Positions 35,648 through 51,882 of a stretch of 64,000 bases of DNA are shown here, one piece after another. The notes below the pieces were generated by a model. It searched no databases, was not told the DNA's origin, and saw nothing but the letters and a program-made list of their open reading frames with translations. Every line of letters starts with the position of its first letter. Position 1 is the first letter of the stretch. The translations under genes and the position numbers were made by a program. Source of the DNA: Fictibacillus halophilus (lineage in GTDB: Bacteria > Bacillota > Bacilli > Bacillales > Fictibacillaceae); the NCBI RefSeq assembly GCF_016401385.1, contig NZ_JAEACF010000001.1, positions 496,001 to 560,000 of the forward strand, read 5' to 3'.

Positions 35648-35828
35648 ACAAATCACATCCTTCACTCATCCGATTTAATAGTATATGAAGGAAGGGGTGG
35701 ACAAGTATAGACACGTACACTGAGAGAAATAACTATTTTTCTTGAAAGTAGAAGTTGTTGTTTATTGTACAAGGAGATGGATACATACTAATTGGGTGTA
35801 CTTAATCAATAGAGAGAGGAGTTTGAAA

Positions 35829-36575
35829 ATGACAAAAACTGTGCTTAGTTTCATTTTTGTAATGGGATTTGCTCTCGTTCATTTAAGCTCAAAATACTTG
35901 AGTTTTATAAAAGATTCTTCGCGAAATAAGTTTTTATCTTTTGCAGGAGGAGTAGCTGTTTCTTATGTGTTTCTACATTTACTCCCTGATTTGAATCACT
36001 ATCAACAAAAGGTTGGGAAAACGCTTAATCATGGAATCGGTCACTATTTGGAGGATCATATCTATTTAATAGCGTTGCTTGGTCTTGCACTTTTTTATGG
36101 ACTAGAGCGATTAGTCAAGAATTCTAAAAAGAAACAAGGCGCACAGTCAAACTCTGAAGAAGTTGCAGTTTCTTCAGGTGTCTTCTGGGTACATATAGCA
36201 TCATTCTTTCTGTATAATGCGGTAATTGGATACTTGCTCATAAGAGAAGAGTACGAGACGAAATGGGGAATGTTCTTCTTCTTTTTGGCATTGAGCATTC
36301 ACTTTGTCGCTAATGATCATGGCCTTAGGAAGGATCACAAACAAAAATATGACAAGTATGGACGAGTGCTGCTTACAGTCGCGATTTTAATTGGTTGGGG
36401 TATCGGGGCTATCACGGTAGTTCATGAACTAATCGTATCTATACTAGTTGCTCTTCTAGCAGGAGGCATTATTTTAAACGTTCTAAAAGAAGAACTGCCA
36501 GAGGATCAGGAAAGCAGTTTTGTATCGTTTATCACAGGGTTAACAGGTTTTTCGGTACTGATGATGTTGGTCTAG
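35829..36575 (+). CDS. Multi-pass membrane protein, possibly ZIP-transporter-like
   Basis: A membrane protein of 248 residues with about eight hydrophobic segments. The segment VSYVFLHLLPDLNHY recalls the HLLPE motif of ZIP metal transporters, and His clusters follow (HGIGHYLEDH, HFVANDHGLRKDHK), but the canonical HNxxEG motif of the fourth ZIP helix is replaced (LYNAVIGYLL). It may therefore be a diverged ZIP relative or an unrelated protein. ATG at 35829 follows AGAGGAG. The MarR gene on the opposite strand ends 5 bases past its stop. Confidence 0.6.
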   Translation: MTKTVLSFIFVMGFALVHLSSKYLSFIKDSSRNKFLSFAGGVAVSYVFLHLLPDLNHYQQKVGKTLNHGIGHYLEDHIYLIALLGLALFYGLERLVKNSKKKQGAQSNSEEVAVSSGVFWVHIASFFLYNAVIGYLLIREEYETKWGMFFFFLALSIHFVANDHGLRKDHKQKYDKYGRVLLTVAILIGWGIGAITVVHELIVSILVALLAGGIILNVLKEELPEDQESSFVSFITGLTGFSVLMMLV

Positions 36576-40511: not shown

Positions 40512-40847
40512 ATGCTTAATTATGATGGAAAAGTATTCGTGTCTGTTCAAAATTCTTCAAACGGTGAGGTATCCTCACAAACAACGTTTCACTACAAACA
40601 AGACGGTAATATTGTCACTGCCTCATATGCAGGTGGAGAAATCTTAAAAGGCACGTTAATCGGAATTGCAAACGAAGACGGCAGCTTGAACTTCAGGTAC
40701 AATCATGTGAATACGTCTGATGAAATAAGAGGTGGAGCCTGTATATCTCAACCTGAGGTATTAAGTGACGGAAGGATAAGATTGTATGAAAAATGGAGAT
40801 GGGCGGAAGGGAGTTCTGGAGAGTCCGTAATTGAGGAAGTAAAATAA
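40512..40847 (+). CDS. Conserved beta-rich protein of unknown function (often labelled N-acetylglutamate synthase)
   Basis: A protein of 111 residues with repeated beta strands: [51 protein letters not shown] and [23 protein letters not shown]. Many genomes label this family N-acetylglutamate synthase, but no acetyl-CoA motif is present, so I would not assign that activity. The ATG follows AAAAAGGTGG. A terminator separates it from the metallophore operon. Confidence 0.75.
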
Positions 40848-40908
40848 AGTAAAAATAATATCCACTTTCATTCAATTTATTAAAAGGAAAACATTCAGTA
40901 TATCTGTA

Positions 40909-40939
40909 AGCACTGCAAAATATGCAGTGTTTTTTTTAT
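40909..40939 (+). terminator. Terminator
   Basis: CACTGCA / TGCAGTG stem with 5-base loop and eight T residues; isolates the metallophore operon from upstream transcription. Confidence 0.85.
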
Positions 40940-40990
40940 CGTACTTGGCTTGAACAGTAATTAAATATAACAAATTCATAGCAATTATCA

Positions 40991-41050
40991 TTGACTCGTT
41001 TTATAAAGTGATGATAGTATATAAAAATCAAATCGTAATAATTACGATTT
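40991..41050 (+). promoter_or_regulatory. Promoter with perfect Zur box of the metallophore operon
   Basis: -35 TTGACT (40991-40996), 18-base spacer, -10 TAGTAT (41015-41020). The operator TCGTAATAATTACGA (41033-41047), flanked by AAA and TTT to a 21-bp palindrome, is identical to the Bacillus Zur consensus TCGTAATNATTACGA. It covers the first transcribed bases, so zinc-loaded Zur should repress. Confidence 0.85.
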
Positions 41051-41074
41051 ACAAAATATTGTATGGAGGTACGA

Positions 41075-41866
41075 GTGAAAGAGAGATTTCAATTATTACT
41101 ATCTTTGAAAGTCACCGAGTATGAAATCAATGAACTTTCAAAGTTTGCCAAAGAATGTGATGAGTGTTACGAGTTATTAAAAGTAAAGCTGGATAGTCTT
41201 CACCATTTTATGACAGATCCTATAAACCTGCACCGATGGCAGGAATGGGGGAAGGACAAGGATATTCTGTCACTGTCTGAAAAGCTCCGGGAAGCTTCCG
41301 TACAAGCTCTTTGTGAGATGGAAAAATACCAAAGTGTGCGTACATGTAACCATCAATTGAATGCAAGTGAATACATAACTACACTCTCTCAAACTGTGAA
41401 ACATGAATTGGATGAATTACATATCAATGAGAACTCTAAGGTATTATTTATAGGTTCTGGAGCGTTTCCCATTTCTGCCCTCACTATCGCCAGTGAGAAG
41501 AATGCTGAAGTTCATTGTATAGACATTGATGAAGAAGCGGTCGAGATGGGAAGAAAAGTCTCTCTGATTACAGGCCTACAAGACAACGTTAGATTTTCTA
41601 ATTCTGTTCGAAACGACTTACACTTTGCCCATAATACTACTCATGTCTTAATCGCTTCTCTAGTCAGAAATAAACGGGAAGTACTGAATGAACTAAAGGA
41701 TATATTACAGCCTCATACAAAAGTGATTCTCAGATACGGAAACGGATTAAAATCAATCTTTAACTATCCGTTAGAAATGAACCTAACGAAAGACTGGGAA
41801 CTGCAGAGCGTTAAACGAACAGACGGTATCTATGACACGATGGTCTTAGAGAAGGTAAATGCATGA
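41075..41866 (+). CDS. cntL: Nicotianamine-synthase-like opine metallophore enzyme (CntL family)
   Basis: A protein of 263 residues with the nicotianamine synthase fold. The SAM-binding segment VLFIGSGAFPISALTIA (about 122-138), then HCIDIDEEAVEMGRKV, and the C-terminal RYGNGLKSIFNYPL match CntL enzymes. CntL transfers an aminobutanoate unit from S-adenosylmethionine to histidine. No histidine racemase (CntK) is encoded here, so L-histidine is the likely acceptor, as in pseudopaline. GTG at 41075 follows GGAGG; ATG at 41063 has no site. It overlaps cntM by 4 bases. First gene of a Zur-boxed operon. Confidence 0.87.
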   Translation: MKERFQLLLSLKVTEYEINELSKFAKECDECYELLKVKLDSLHHFMTDPINLHRWQEWGKDKDILSLSEKLREASVQALCEMEKYQSVRTCNHQLNASEYITTLSQTVKHELDELHINENSKVLFIGSGAFPISALTIASEKNAEVHCIDIDEEAVEMGRKVSLITGLQDNVRFSNSVRNDLHFAHNTTHVLIASLVRNKREVLNELKDILQPHTKVILRYGNGLKSIFNYPLEMNLTKDWELQSVKRTDGIYDTMVLEKVNA

Positions 41867-43194
41867 ATGTAAATAAAGGAAGTGAGGGAATCGTGGGTAC
41901 GAAACGTTCAAAAGATCTTGGGAATATCCTAATAGCAGGCGTTGGACCAGCTGCCATTCAAACAGCTGTCCAGCTTTGCGCTGCTGGTTTTAGTGAAAGA
42001 ATAGGATTGTATAATCGGCCAGGTGCTCGTGCAGAACGGATTAAAAGAGAACTGAATCAAAATCATTTTGAAGTCAATCTTACTATTCAGGATAAAGAGG
42101 AAGAATTGACAACAAAGGTGGATTGTTTTTTTGATGACGTATCTCAACTATCTGATGAATGGGATACGGTTATTCTTGCAACTCCCTGTACGAGCTATGC
42201 AAACGTAATAGAGTCACTTCAGACTATAGAGTTAAAGCGCGTAAGAACCATAGTTCTACTAGCTCCAAACATCGGTTCAAACGATCTCGTAAAAAATTTG
42301 CTGTTACAAGAAACAGTTGAAGTAATCAGCATGTCAACATATTTTGCTGCTACTAAATCTCTTAATTCTGCTATAAAGGCTCATACGAAAGCATATAAAA
42401 AACGTATTTACTTAGGTTCATCAATCAGTAAAAGCCGTACGCTAAATACACTGCAAGAATTTTTAAAATCAATGAATATCGATGGGGAGATCGTCGATCA
42501 CCCTCTCGATGCGGAATGCAGAAATATAACAACATATGTGCATCCTGCCTTCTTCTTAAATAGATTTACTTTAAATGAAATATTTGGCCTTCATACTAAT
42601 GGTACGAAGTATATGTATAAGTTGTTTCCTGAAGGTCCCATCACACCACAAAGAATAAAAACAATGGTGCGGCTCTGGAAAGAAATTTCTACATTAATGA
42701 ATGAACTAGGCGCAAAATCGATCAATTTATTGCAGTTTTTAAATGACGATAATTATCCCGTTCCAACAGAATGCATCCAAAGAGAGGACATTGATAATTT
42801 TTCAGAATATGAGGAAGTCAAACAGGAGTATCTGCTCTATATACGCTATGCTTCTATTCTAATCGACCCATTTTCAAAGCCTGATCATGAAGGAAGATAT
42901 TTTGAATTCTCAGCAGTTCCCTTTAAAAAAGCAGAAGAAGAAAATAAGGGAGTGTGGTCTATCCCTAGGATACCGTTCGAAGATTATCAAAAATTGATCG
43001 TGATCTATGGACTTGCAGAGAATTCAGGAATTCCAATGCCTGAGATGAAAAGACTCATCAAAAATTTCGAATCAGAGTGTCAGCAGATTGAATCCCTGTT
43101 AGGAATAAAAGAGTCATTAATCGAAGCAAGAAGAGAATCTTCCTTGCAAGAAGTAACAAACATCATGAAGGAAAGAAAGAGGCGATTACAATGA
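41863..43194 (+). CDS. cntM: Opine metallophore dehydrogenase (CntM family, DUF2338)
   Basis: A protein of 443 residues, typical length of the staphylopine dehydrogenase family. The N-terminal Rossmann motif NILIAGVGPAAIQTAVQL is followed by LYNRPGARAERI for NADPH; the catalytic C-terminal domain contains NITTYVHPAFFLNRF and WKEISTLMNEL. It reductively condenses the CntL product with an alpha-keto acid (pyruvate or 2-oxoglutarate) to the final opine metallophore. Which keto acid is used is not settled by the sequence. Its ATG overlaps the cntL stop and its stop overlaps the exporter ATG, so all three are translationally coupled. Confidence 0.9.
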   Translation: MNVNKGSEGIVGTKRSKDLGNILIAGVGPAAIQTAVQLCAAGFSERIGLYNRPGARAERIKRELNQNHFEVNLTIQDKEEELTTKVDCFFDDVSQLSDEWDTVILATPCTSYANVIESLQTIELKRVRTIVLLAPNIGSNDLVKNLLLQETVEVISMSTYFAATKSLNSAIKAHTKAYKKRIYLGSSISKSRTLNTLQEFLKSMNIDGEIVDHPLDAECRNITTYVHPAFFLNRFTLNEIFGLHTNGTKYMYKLFPEGPITPQRIKTMVRLWKEISTLMNELGAKSINLLQFLNDDNYPVPTECIQREDIDNFSEYEEVKQEYLLYIRYASILIDPFSKPDHEGRYFEFSAVPFKKAEEENKGVWSIPRIPFEDYQKLIVIYGLAENSGIPMPEMKRLIKNFESECQQIESLLGIKESLIEARRESSLQEVTNIMKERKRRLQ

Positions 43195-44087
43195 AAAACG
43201 GTGTTTGGCTCGCCATTTTGTCTTCCTTTATTTTCAGTATTATGAACGCTCTCGTTAAGGCAGTAAGTTTAAACATCCCTTATTCAGAAAGTGTATTCTT
43301 TAGAAGTTTGATAGGCACAATCATCATCTTTATTATTATGAAAAAGAAAAAGGTAGCCTTTTCAAAAACGGGTGTACCAATGCTTATGGTTCGAGGAGTC
43401 TTTGGAGCGTTGTATCTATTAGCCTATTTTTATACAATCGCTAAAATTCCGTTAGCAGATGCGAGTATTCTGGCTCATCTGTCTCCCATTTTTGCCGTAG
43501 TATTAGCAGGTTTGTTTTTAAAAGAAAAGCTAACGAAAACGCTTCTCTATATTCTTCCTGTCGTGTTAGCAGGGGCGTTCTTACTGATTAAACCACAGGA
43601 GTTCTCGTCCTATTCCATGTATGCGCTAATTGGTGTAGGAAGTGCTTTTTTCGCAGCTTGTGCAGCCACTTCTATTCGGTATTTAAGCAGCAGACATCAT
43701 GCTTATGAGATCGTATTTTATTTTCTCGCTACAGCAACGTTAGTTAGTATACCTTTAATGTGGAACCAATTTGTAATACCTTCACCATTAGAACTGTTCT
43801 ATTTAATCTGCATCGGAGTTGTATCTTTAGTAGGACAGTTATTCTTAACAAGTGCATTCACGCATGAAAATGTCATTGTTGTAGAGGTTACCCGTTACAT
43901 TGGAATCGTCTTTAACGCCTTTTGGGGCTTTTTATTCTGGTCAGAGATTCCAGATGCTCAAACGATTCTAGGAGGTATGTTAATTATTGCTTCATGCATC
44001 TTCCTATCACGTAGGCGAGCACTAGAAGCAAAGGGAAATAATTTAAGATTGAATAAAGTAGCGATGAATACACATGCAAAAAGGTAA
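43191..44087 (+). CDS. EamA/DMT family exporter of the metallophore operon (CntI-like role)
   Basis: A membrane protein of 298 residues with ten helices in two EamA repeats (about 1-135 and 145-280), with the family's KIPLADASILAHLSPIFAVVLAGLFLKE segment split over helices 3-4. In Pseudomonas aeruginosa an EamA-type protein (CntI) exports pseudopaline; here the gene overlaps cntM by 4 bases, so export of the opine is the probable function. No importer for the loaded metallophore follows: the next genes are convergent and unrelated. Confidence 0.85.
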   Translation: MKNGVWLAILSSFIFSIMNALVKAVSLNIPYSESVFFRSLIGTIIIFIIMKKKKVAFSKTGVPMLMVRGVFGALYLLAYFYTIAKIPLADASILAHLSPIFAVVLAGLFLKEKLTKTLLYILPVVLAGAFLLIKPQEFSSYSMYALIGVGSAFFAACAATSIRYLSSRHHAYEIVFYFLATATLVSIPLMWNQFVIPSPLELFYLICIGVVSLVGQLFLTSAFTHENVIVVEVTRYIGIVFNAFWGFLFWSEIPDAQTILGGMLIIASCIFLSRRRALEAKGNNLRLNKVAMNTHAKR

Positions 44088-44090
44088 GGA

Positions 44091-44120
44091 GAAAACGCTC
44101 GGTTAAGAGCGTTTTCTTTT
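44091..44120. terminator. Bidirectional terminator
   Basis: GAAAACGCTC / GAGCGTTTTC perfect stem with 6-base loop between convergent exporter and permease genes. Confidence 0.9.
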
Positions 44121-49422: not shown

Positions 49423-50410
49423 GTTTGTTTTCTTTAACAAATGAAAAAGAGGGGCCGGATGGTATTACTTCTATAGGCTTTAATTGATCTCTAAAGCTGT
49501 TGTGTTTAGATAAGAGGTAAGCCTTCTCCAATCCTGAAAGTATAAATGTACTTGCGATTATGGTTAACGTGAAAAAAAGAATTGGAACAAGTGGAATTCA
49601 AGGATGTGACATAAACGAAGGATAATACATCCCTAGTAAACCCGTCCATTCATGAGTAACAGAATCAATATCTCCCCCATGAAAGACAATGGTTCCTCCA
49701 AAAAATACTTGTAGTACTCCTAAGTGTATTAAGATGACAAGAACTTGAATGAATTGCTGCAGAAACAAGATGATAAGTATTGGATTCAGGTGGGGGGCAA
49801 TATGTTTTCTTAGAAGATGAGGATAACGGCCACCTAATATTTTTGCAGAACGAACAAATTCTTCATTGAGTAATAATTTTATTTCATTTCCTAAATAAAA
49901 AGTAATTGTCGGAACGGCGAATATGATTAAGATCATCATCTGAAAGCCAACCCTTAGATAAAAGGGTTCTGGTGTAGTACCGTTACTAAAAGTTAGGACG
50001 TGTTGCAAGAGGAAATAGGAAATCATAGTCATTGGAATAACTGAAAAACTATCAAAAAAAGACTCAAAGCTTCGGAAAAGTGGTTTGTTAAATTTAGCAA
50101 GGGTTATCGCTAGTAATAAGCCGATAAAAATACGCATAAAAGTGATAAGTAGTCCAGCACCTATTGTCCACTTTGCGCCCTCAATAATGAGATGAAGCAA
50201 ATCATACCCTTTACGGTCCGTTCCTAATAAGAATTCGGCTGACGGTGCAAACGGTGCAGCACTCACTGTGCCATCTTCATCAAAAAGTAAGGATACACGT
50301 CTGATCTCACCATCATGGATAACTGAATTTCCAATACTTAATACTACAAGAGTTACTAAAAACAGAAGAGCAGTTACAGCTCTTTTTTGACGTATGAAAT
50401 AATACCACAT
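49400..50410 (-). pseudogene. ABC transporter permease, OppC/DppC-like, with in-frame TGA
   Basis: The frame encodes 270 residues and then meets TGA at 49598-49600, but remains open for 65 more codons up to TAG at 49400, inside the terminator loop. The extension supplies the missing last helix (VPILFFTLTIIASTFILSGL) and a cytoplasmic tail. In OppC-type permeases a Trp usually stands at this point (TxPWxxLFP versus SHP-stop-IPLVP), so TGG to TGA is the simplest explanation. The rest has the permease coupling motif AKILGGRYPHLLRKHIAPHLN. Either a nonsense mutant, a readthrough gene, or a sequence error. Last of four overlapping genes behind an ECF promoter. Confidence 0.8.
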
Positions 50411-50411
50411 A

Positions 50412-51287
50412 TTAGACGACCTCTTTTAAAAGATGTGAAGTGAATAAACTAAACACCTTGAAATAAATAAAAATAGGTACATAGATGAGTAATAATGCTA
50501 CTGTAAAAGTTTCGATACTGTTATAGTCTTTTACAAAAATAAATAGCCCAATAGAGTTGAAAAAATATTCAATAATATAAAGGTTGGATAACATAAGCCA
50601 AATGTTTGTTTTTGTAAAAAAGAAGAAACGAAGTAGGACGTTTCTTAACACATGTTTAAAAAATACAGTGAAATGACTTAATCCTTTACTGTTTGCAAGT
50701 GATACGTAAGGCTTTTCATATTCTTCTTCAATACGCAAAAGTAAAATCTTCGTAAACATAATGGTTGTAGGAATACTTAAACAAATGATTGGAAGTGCCC
50801 TTATCTTTTGATCGCCAGCCGCCGCAACTTCCACAATGAGTATCCCTGTTTTTTTAAACAACCATACTACAGACAACTGCAAAGTCATAATGATTAGAAT
50901 ATCTGGCAAAGCTTCAAGATAAACGATACACTGTTTGATTCTATTAACAACTCTAGGATTAATTCTTGTAAGACTATAAACGATAACGATAGCTAGTAAT
51001 AATGAAACGATAAAAGAGCTAGAAAATATAAATAAGGATTCTTTGTACCTGATTAGAATTTCAGGAAACAAAGGGCGTACAACTTTATAATAGGAGTACG
51101 TTAAGGAAGAAGGTTCTAGTAATTTTTGAACTAGGTTTCCAAATGTTAGATAATAGTGTGTAATATTTAACGAAAGTCCGTTAAAAAGTGCTGGCGCAGC
51201 ACCTAAAGCTATGATCCCTACTACTGACAGAAAAAAATGAATACAGGTAAATAATAAATGTTTGCCCCCGCTAATTACCTTATCCAT
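50412..51287 (-). CDS. ABC transporter permease, OppB/DppB-like
   Basis: A membrane protein of about 291 residues with roughly six helices. The cytoplasmic coupling loop SLANSKGLSHFTVFFKHVLRN resembles the EAA motif of oligopeptide-type permeases, and it stands immediately before a second, OppC-like permease gene. Sequence is strongly diverged. No ATPase or substrate-binding protein gene adjoins, so partners must be elsewhere or the pair acts differently. ATG at 51287 overlaps the stop of the anti-sigma-like gene by 8 bases; a TTG start 7 codons upstream is also possible. Confidence 0.75.
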   Translation of the reverse strand: MDKVISGGKHLLFTCIHFFLSVVGIIALGAAPALFNGLSLNITHYYLTFGNLVQKLLEPSSLTYSYYKVVRPLFPEILIRYKESLFIFSSSFIVSLLLAIVIVYSLTRINPRVVNRIKQCIVYLEALPDILIIMTLQLSVVWLFKKTGILIVEVAAAGDQKIRALPIICLSIPTTIMFTKILLLRIEEEYEKPYVSLANSKGLSHFTVFFKHVLRNVLLRFFFFTKTNIWLMLSNLYIIEYFFNSIGLFIFVKDYNSIETFTVALLLIYVPIFIYFKVFSLFTSHLLKEVV

Positions 51288-51882
51288 CTTCCGGCATGCT
51301 CCATTCAATACCGATTGATCCTGCAGGTTTGTGTGCGATAAGTATGTAGTTGTTTACATTACCATTATCATAAGCATCTGGATGCTCTTTATAGTTCGAA
51401 AGATATACAGTTACATCTTTCATTTCCCACACGCTTTTTCGATGTGGGTAAAGCATTTGATATAGTCTTGAGTATGTTGTTAACACTTCTTCTACATCCT
51501 TCTTATAATCACTTATTTTACCCCTATCTGAAATCATCACTTCCATGGAGAAGGAATTTTCACTTTGTTGTAGATTATAAATTTCATCGGTCAATCCTTT
51601 TTGTTTTGCCAAATTTTCCGCTTTTGTCAAAAACGGAATGGACATATAACTTGTTGATGAATTATTTCCTGTTTTTGTTACAAGAATTGGAATGCTAGTT
51701 GTCACGAAAAGTAAGATTAGCGCAGTGATCATAAGGTCTTTCGCAAAATAGAACGAAGGTTTAACGGTTTTCTTCTCTCTAATACTTTGTAAAATATCTC
51801 TTTCCATTTGTGAGGTGAGTTTGATCTGTCTATATAAGCGCTGATCCATATGTTTTTTTAGATGTTCGAGTTTATCTTCCAA
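51280..51882 (-). CDS. Membrane protein, putative anti-sigma factor
   Basis: A single-pass membrane protein of 200 residues: a basic cytoplasmic segment of about 47 residues (MERDILQSIREKKTVKPS), one helix (LMITALILLFVTTSIPILV, about 50-68) and an extracytoplasmic domain of 130 residues with no known family. This topology, with the gene overlapping the 3' end of an ECF sigma gene by 11 bases, fits an anti-sigma factor; no zinc-binding ZAS motif is visible. The TTG start follows GGGGGGAT. Confidence 0.68.
   Translation of the reverse strand: MEDKLEHLKKHMDQRLYRQIKLTSQMERDILQSIREKKTVKPSFYFAKDLMITALILLFVTTSIPILVTKTGNNSSTSYMSIPFLTKAENLAKQKGLTDEIYNLQQSENSFSMEVMISDRGKISDYKKDVEEVLTTYSRLYQMLYPHRKSVWEMKDVTVYLSNYKEHPDAYDNGNVNNYILIAHKPAGSIGIEWSMPEDG

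Follow-up and report, generated by a model that had tools for sequence, protein, structure and literature searches.

What does Fictibacillus halophilus make with a three-gene operon that lies directly behind a predicted operator of the regulator Zur, and how would the product find its way back into the cell? The operon (cntL-cntM-eamA) occupies positions 40991-44087 of the window, the whole stretch of 64,000 nucleotides analyzed here (forward-strand positions 496,001 to 560,000 of contig NZ_JAEACF010000001.1, assembly GCF_016401385.1). We propose, with a probability of about 0.72, that this Zur-repressed operon makes and exports a pseudopaline-type opine zincophore, and that the metal-opine complex re-enters through an unlinked importer of the NikA/Opp5A type. 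When zinc drops, Zur would leave an operator that follows closely on the promoter; CntL would move aminobutyrate from S-adenosylmethionine to L-histidine, CntM would reductively condense the CntL intermediate with alpha-ketoglutarate, and the EamA protein would export the opine. The metal-loaded opine would then return via a NikA/Opp5A-type ATP-binding cassette (ABC) importer encoded 1.2 Mb away, in an operon with two Zur boxes of its own and a MATE gene at its end. The protein families, the fold, the operon anatomy, the operators, the linkage in relatives and the trees on which this proposal draws were computed here.

The first gene, cntL (41063-41866, plus strand), encodes a CntL-like aminobutanoyltransferase. 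Its product matches the Pfam nicotianamine synthase family NAS (PF03059; 39 bits, cut-off 27.1, E 7.7e-10), and its closest solved relatives by sequence are S. aureus CntL (E about 1e-30) and then MtNAS. The structure predicted on alignment A2, which holds 21 CntL sequences, has a predicted local distance difference test score (pLDDT) of 90.3, the single-sequence model reaching only 48.6; the best eight fold matches of the CntL model are all CntL chains (E 2.5e-18 to 5e-16; template modelling scores 0.81-0.89 by query length), with MtNAS next. Both the profile search and the fold thus agree with an earlier note on this DNA, which had described the first product as nicotianamine-synthase-like. 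The product also has weaker matches to generic methyltransferase families, as an ordinary methyltransferase beside an opine dehydrogenase would; but sequence and fold comparisons alike put CntL first among solved structures and MtNAS second, and the gene order with cntM and the Zur box is conserved, so that we consider this assignment extremely improbable, and it was dropped after the solved-relative search and the fold matches.

The second gene, cntM (41863-43194, plus strand), encodes an opine dehydrogenase of 443 amino acids (aa) that matches Pfam Staph_opine_DH, formerly DUF2338, with 467.6 bits (cut-off 25, E 4e-140). Its closest solved relatives are pseudopaline dehydrogenase (E 8.3e-94) and then staphylopine dehydrogenase (E 2.1e-79), and its first seven organism-named matches are all from Fictibacillus. 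The third gene, eamA (43191-44087, plus strand), encodes an EamA-family exporter of 298 aa (Pfam EamA, 106.1 bits, E 2.3e-30), 60.8% identical to the EamA protein encoded beside cntLM in Pseudomonas aeruginosa PA7. The DUF2338 and EamA assignments made in the earlier note are borne out by these matches, and in the profile search against the CntL and CntM families that it had suggested, both enzymes pass the Pfam gathering scores, though both score under the cut-offs of the NCBIfam staphylopine equivalogs.

Which opine these enzymes would make can be narrowed by one residue and one missing gene. Residue 163 of the F. halophilus CntM is Ala and aligns with Asp150 of SaCntM; according to the survey by Morey and Kehl-Fie (2020; PMC7438024), Asp at this position pairs with pyruvate and Ala with alpha-ketoglutarate, and racemases are reported for clusters 1 and 2. 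Among the CntM proteins gathered, Asp occupies this alpha-keto-acid selectivity position in 30 of 30 racemase-type loci, the EamA-type loci divide into Ala (47), Ser (4) and Asp (1 of 52), and four of four mixed loci have Ala. A search of 11 Fictibacillus genomes (ten with CntM plus G005, a relative discussed below) found no relative of the racemase CntK in any of them and recovered both of two controls; the sole DAP-epimerase-family gene of F. halophilus is a single frame of 289 aa with two half-domains, like DapF. In P. aeruginosa, as described in PMC5719457, PaCntL uses L-His and PaCntM alpha-ketoglutarate, CntI is involved in exporting pseudopaline, and the operon is repressed by Zur. Because no CntK relative turned up in the 11 genomes, Ala stands at the selectivity position and these are the substrates of PaCntL and PaCntM, our best guess for the product is pseudopaline or a close kin.

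An opine of another kind, whether pyruvate-based (yersinopine-like), built on D-His through a racemase of another type, or made from some other amino or keto acid, would be compatible with the modest identity to the P. aeruginosa PA7 counterparts (37.6% for CntL and 40.7% for CntM), with the mixed residues of the EamA-type loci and with both enzymes falling below the equivalog cut-offs. Against such a product stand the Ala of the F. halophilus enzyme, the lack of a CntK relative in the 11 genomes and the identity of the best solved CntM relative, a pseudopaline dehydrogenase; we regard it as unlikely. Staphylopine itself was rejected, as the 11 genomes gave no CntK relative, Asp150 is lacking and both enzymes lie below the equivalog cut-offs. 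Of the "staphylopine/pseudopaline-type" label given in the earlier note, the opine type therefore stands and narrows to the pseudopaline side, while staphylopine falls away. Twenty-one CntL columns separate racemase-type from EamA-type loci; they could not be tied to ligand contacts and gave no conclusion on histidine chirality. Two cntL-cntM sets lie close together at L101, where one of the two dehydrogenases has Asp at the selectivity position, and L089 and L097 likewise hold two sets near each other in one locus.

The control region points to Zur. A perfect 21-bp palindrome (AAATCGTAATAATTACGATTT, 41030-41050) matches the Bacillus Zur operator consensus, as given in PMC545781, with 0 mismatches, exactly as the earlier note had read it, and it is the sole match with three mismatches or fewer, the threshold used throughout, in the window. 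Shuffled windows are expected to hold 0.02 such boxes on average, and 2 of 100 shuffles had one. Across the whole genome (3.92 Mb) the pattern occurs at seven places and the reversed pattern at none, the box at 41030-41050 being the only exact one. Besides this operon (one box) and the operon of the candidate importer (L012, two boxes), the boxes precede a gene for a ZigA-like GTPase (L013; 553 of 600 bits), a gene for an AdcA-like binding protein (L014; 261 of 700 bits), two membrane-protein genes (L015) and a znu-like operon that ends in a Fur-family gene (L016; three mismatches). A ZIP-family zinc transporter gene (35742-36575; 35.8 bits, cut-off 35.1), found 5 kb upstream of the operon, has no Zur box.

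Similar boxes accompany related loci. Of 48 EamA-type loci, 31 have a Zur box before cntL, cntK or the gene for the binding protein, and of 31 racemase-type loci 18 do; when the upstream sequences were shuffled once each, 0 of the 48 and 0 of the 31 did. Eight duplicates were not counted, nor were loci that belong to neither type or have no cntM above 200 bits. Among the matches listed for 18 Fictibacillus genomes, each genome has Zur boxes at 3 to 9 places and reversed-pattern matches at 0 to 2, so single sites with three mismatches can be chance. A molecule serving nickel or cobalt uptake would suit the nickel name carried by the importer family described below; all three boxes at the two loci, together with the other genome boxes near zinc-uptake-like genes, point instead to Zur and make this quite improbable. 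Family matches, CntL fold, the genome-wide set of boxes and the gene order kept in relatives together uphold the reading of opine-metallophore synthesis and EamA export under Zur control. The statement in the earlier note that a perfect Zur box gives the function directly was too strong, since Zur binding, the product and the metal are inferred.

How would the loaded opine be recovered? No importer lies within six open reading frames (ORFs) of cntM, and the oligopeptide-type permease genes at 49598-51308 were dropped as candidates, having weak matches far below cut-offs and no Zur box near them. The candidate importer lies on the same contig, 1.196 Mb from cntL-cntM-eamA, where the L012 operon encodes a binding protein, two permeases, two ATPases and then a MATE protein behind two Zur boxes. 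Its binding protein scores 736.1 with the NCBIfam model Opp5A_nikA (cut-off 600) and 162.6 with opine_bind_CntA, below the cut-off of 800. In the genus sample, the 18 Fictibacillus genomes searched for both proteins, CntM occurs in 10 and the binding protein (counted as present at E <=1e-60) in 11; the latter is found in 10 of 10 CntM-positive and 1 of 8 CntM-negative genomes (Fisher p 2.5e-4, uncorrected for kinship). Its gene lies directly behind eamA, with its own Zur box, in four of them (G001, G003, G006 and G007), and apart from cntLM-eamA, with two Zur boxes, in six (G000, G008, G009, G010, G012 and G015). Among 78 named loci compared for gene order, cntL-cntM-eamA-binding protein-permeases-ATPases also occurs in Peribacillus, Bacillus, Planococcus, Domibacillus, Metabacillus and Paenibacillus, and a MATE gene follows the linked importer genes at L085, L090 and L114. 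At racemase-type loci the binding proteins are of the CntA type and reach 94 to 148 bits when compared with that of F. halophilus, the exception being a fragment (59 bits) at the L145 edge; L125 also holds a NikA-type protein (467 bits), and at L135 and L147 no CntA-type binding protein was found.

In a tree of 76 binding proteins (at most 12 CntA-type rows, duplicate loci dropped, bootstrap not settled), the seven unlinked copies, including that of G005, form one clade (100/100), with the linked copies from G003 and G007 as its sister group (100/99). The seven are nested in a larger clade of 17 rows (100/100), and the remaining 10 are all cntLM-linked; because of this nesting the linked state is probably the older one and separation happened once, within Fictibacillus, from an ancestor in which the importer probably adjoined cntLM-eamA. 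The L012 operon is thus probably the importer for the opine of cntL-cntM-eamA. The synthesis and export half of the system described in the earlier note stands, and a probable importer at another locus with Zur boxes, overlooked there, is to be added. In the split clade (G000, G008, G009, G010, G012 and G015), cntM is 79-95% and the binding protein 93-99% identical to the F. halophilus copy, the dehydrogenase diverging more.

The unlinked importer might instead serve another substrate, such as nickel complexes or nicotianamine-like molecules of neighbours, with the same maker operon in place and the opine returning by another route or mainly denying zinc to others. The binding protein does exceed the Opp5A_nikA cut-off, NikA-type operons with MATE genes and Zur boxes do exist in CntM-less genomes, and G005 has the importer without cntLM. 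On the other side, the same type of binding protein is encoded directly behind eamA in many cntLM operons, and the L012 copy belongs to their clade. The "nickel" family name does not discriminate, because linked binding proteins pass the same model (4 of 4 tested, 727-747 bits; one CntA-type control passes the CntA model, 989 of 800). This alternative seems to us rather unlikely, and an importer of the operon's own opine is preferred.

Several results nevertheless weigh against a pseudopaline-type system with this importer. CntL reaches 153.8 of the 350 bits, and CntM 359.7 of the 675 bits, that NCBIfam requires of staphylopine equivalogs, and the curated NCBIfam label of the L012 binding protein is that of a nickel transporter. 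The class-wide sample of 398 genomes, in which the best three candidates per genome were scored and weak or second copies may be missed, is divided: all five genomes with a binding protein of 70% or more identity to the F. halophilus copy have CntM, and the next eight by score (54-60% identical) come from genomes with CntM in only two cases and from CntM-less genomes in six. Finally, the Fur-family gene of L016 is a candidate zur by position only; its product scores higher with models of PerR and Fur than with those of Zur (NCBIfam PerR 82.2 of 180, Zur 28.9 of 167, all below cut-off), and the family scores do not decide.

One relative may receive without making. G005, in which the genus-wide search found no CntM, keeps the six-gene importer operon with its two Zur boxes and a 96% identical binding protein, and its site is collinear gene by gene with window positions 33005-54876 except that 40856-44091, the operator-cntL-cntM-eamA stretch, is missing. 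Loss of synthesis with retention of uptake is suggested because a three-gene tree rooted on G004 nests G005 among cntLM-positive species (support 97 and 99; one inner branch 44, outgroup branch 0.58). The nine-gene flank tree has no root and contains weak inner branches (54 and 64), and each tree gives the F. halophilus genome a different nearest relative (G012 in one, G010 in the other), so loss in this one genome is favoured rather than proven and G005 is a candidate receiver-only species. It resembles the "cheater" staphylococci, which according to PMC12709192 keep a metallophore receptor without biosynthesis genes; those belong to another genus and use another receptor family, whereas in G005 the empty site is visible. 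If our proposal is right, close species with maker and receiver as compared with receiver alone form a natural pair for public-goods tests with a zincophore.

The operon itself is of the racemase-less, EamA-exporting bacilli type already mapped in PMC7438024, whose main text does not mention Fictibacillus. The "cluster 5" zincophore clusters described there share cntL directly before cntM, an EamA efflux gene and an oligopeptide-type importer in the system; their importer lies within six ORFs, whereas that of F. halophilus is 1.2 Mb off, of the NikA/Opp5A type and accompanied by a MATE gene. The pseudopaline system of P. aeruginosa (PMC5719457; PA7 compared) has the same overlapping cntL-cntM-cntI(EamA) arrangement, Zur control, no racemase and Ala at the keto-acid position, but this Gram-negative organism has the outer-membrane receptor CntO in the operon where F. 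halophilus would use an ABC importer that is encoded at a separate site and has a lipoprotein-type binding protein. The staphylopine system of S. aureus (CntKLME, CntABCDF) shares the enzyme families and an oligopeptide-type ABC importer; F. halophilus differs from it in lacking CntK and Asp150, in EamA rather than MFS export and in a NikA/Opp5A rather than CntA binding protein. Our literature search found no paper joining Fictibacillus with an opine metallophore. In the literature searched, which mostly leaves out subscription papers, we found no title on split zincophore loci or on a CntM-free bacterial nicotianamine synthase, and did not meet maker and importer loci that are separated yet both Zur-boxed, a NikA/Opp5A importer in EamA-type clusters or an importer-only relative. 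Should the proposal hold, the type of zinc scavenger demonstrated in Pseudomonas would also be produced by Fictibacillus species, and "nickel importers" of the databases would be zincophore receptors.

A second kind of locus turned up in the class-wide sample. Six of the 398 genomes, all outside those matching CntM, have a nicotianamine synthase (PF03059 above 70 bits): G319 (L167), G118 (L170), G381 (L171), G150 (L181), G276 (L182) and G392 (L183). In four of the six loci the synthase gene is the last gene of, or lies next to, an importer operon of the NikA type that includes a MATE gene, and a Zur box precedes the synthase gene or the importer operon in all six; at L181 it lies inside the longest open frame, before the likelier start. 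These loci could be a nicotianamine-type zincophore system without an opine dehydrogenase and, as Zur-controlled nicotianamine synthases without CntM, may be more novel than the F. halophilus operon. We advance tentatively, as somewhat less than evenly likely, a broader idea: the "nickel" NikA/Opp5A family of Bacilli would, in its Zur-controlled branches, consist of zincophore receptors for CntLM opines and, where CntM is absent, for nicotianamine-type molecules (Zur-controlled synthase, MATE export), and the uncoupling in Fictibacillus would let maker and receiver be lost separately, G005 living on the zincophore of its neighbours.

Within the operon, both ATGA junctions described in the earlier note were found: cntM begins with the ATG at 41863, the cntL stop ending at 41866, and eamA with the ATG at 43191, the cntM stop ending at 43194. 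Translation of cntL probably starts at GTG 41075 (263 aa), five bases past a GGAGG ribosome-binding site (41065-41069, plus strand), rather than at ATG 41063 (267 aa), because the last base of that ATG already begins the GGAGG. A consensus scan, which is not evidence by itself (terminator-like sites 4 versus 1.9 in shuffles, promoter-like sites 9 versus 10.8), placed a promoter-like pair (TTGACT/TAGTAT, spacer 18, TG before the second hexamer) at 40991-41020 on the plus strand and a terminator-like hairpin for the preceding gene (40512-40847) at 40908-40932 on the same strand. Another terminator-like hairpin of 11 pairs (44090-44117) separates eamA from a convergent amino-acid permease gene; the scan puts it on the minus strand, and the palindrome is followed by T-rich sequence on the plus strand too.

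Elsewhere, a sortase gene (PF04203) and a gene of 445 aa without a Pfam match stand between the counterpart of the gene at 40512 and cntL (L066:3470-5853 and L065:9161-11540), with gaps of similar size at L064 and L068; neither gene occurs in the window or in G012. In Metabacillus, a LuxS gene (L114:8591-9073; PF02664, E 1.9e-49) lies directly upstream of cntL, as does a LuxS-looking gene resembling it at L121:8603-9076, and at both loci zigA-like and adcA-like genes come just before it.

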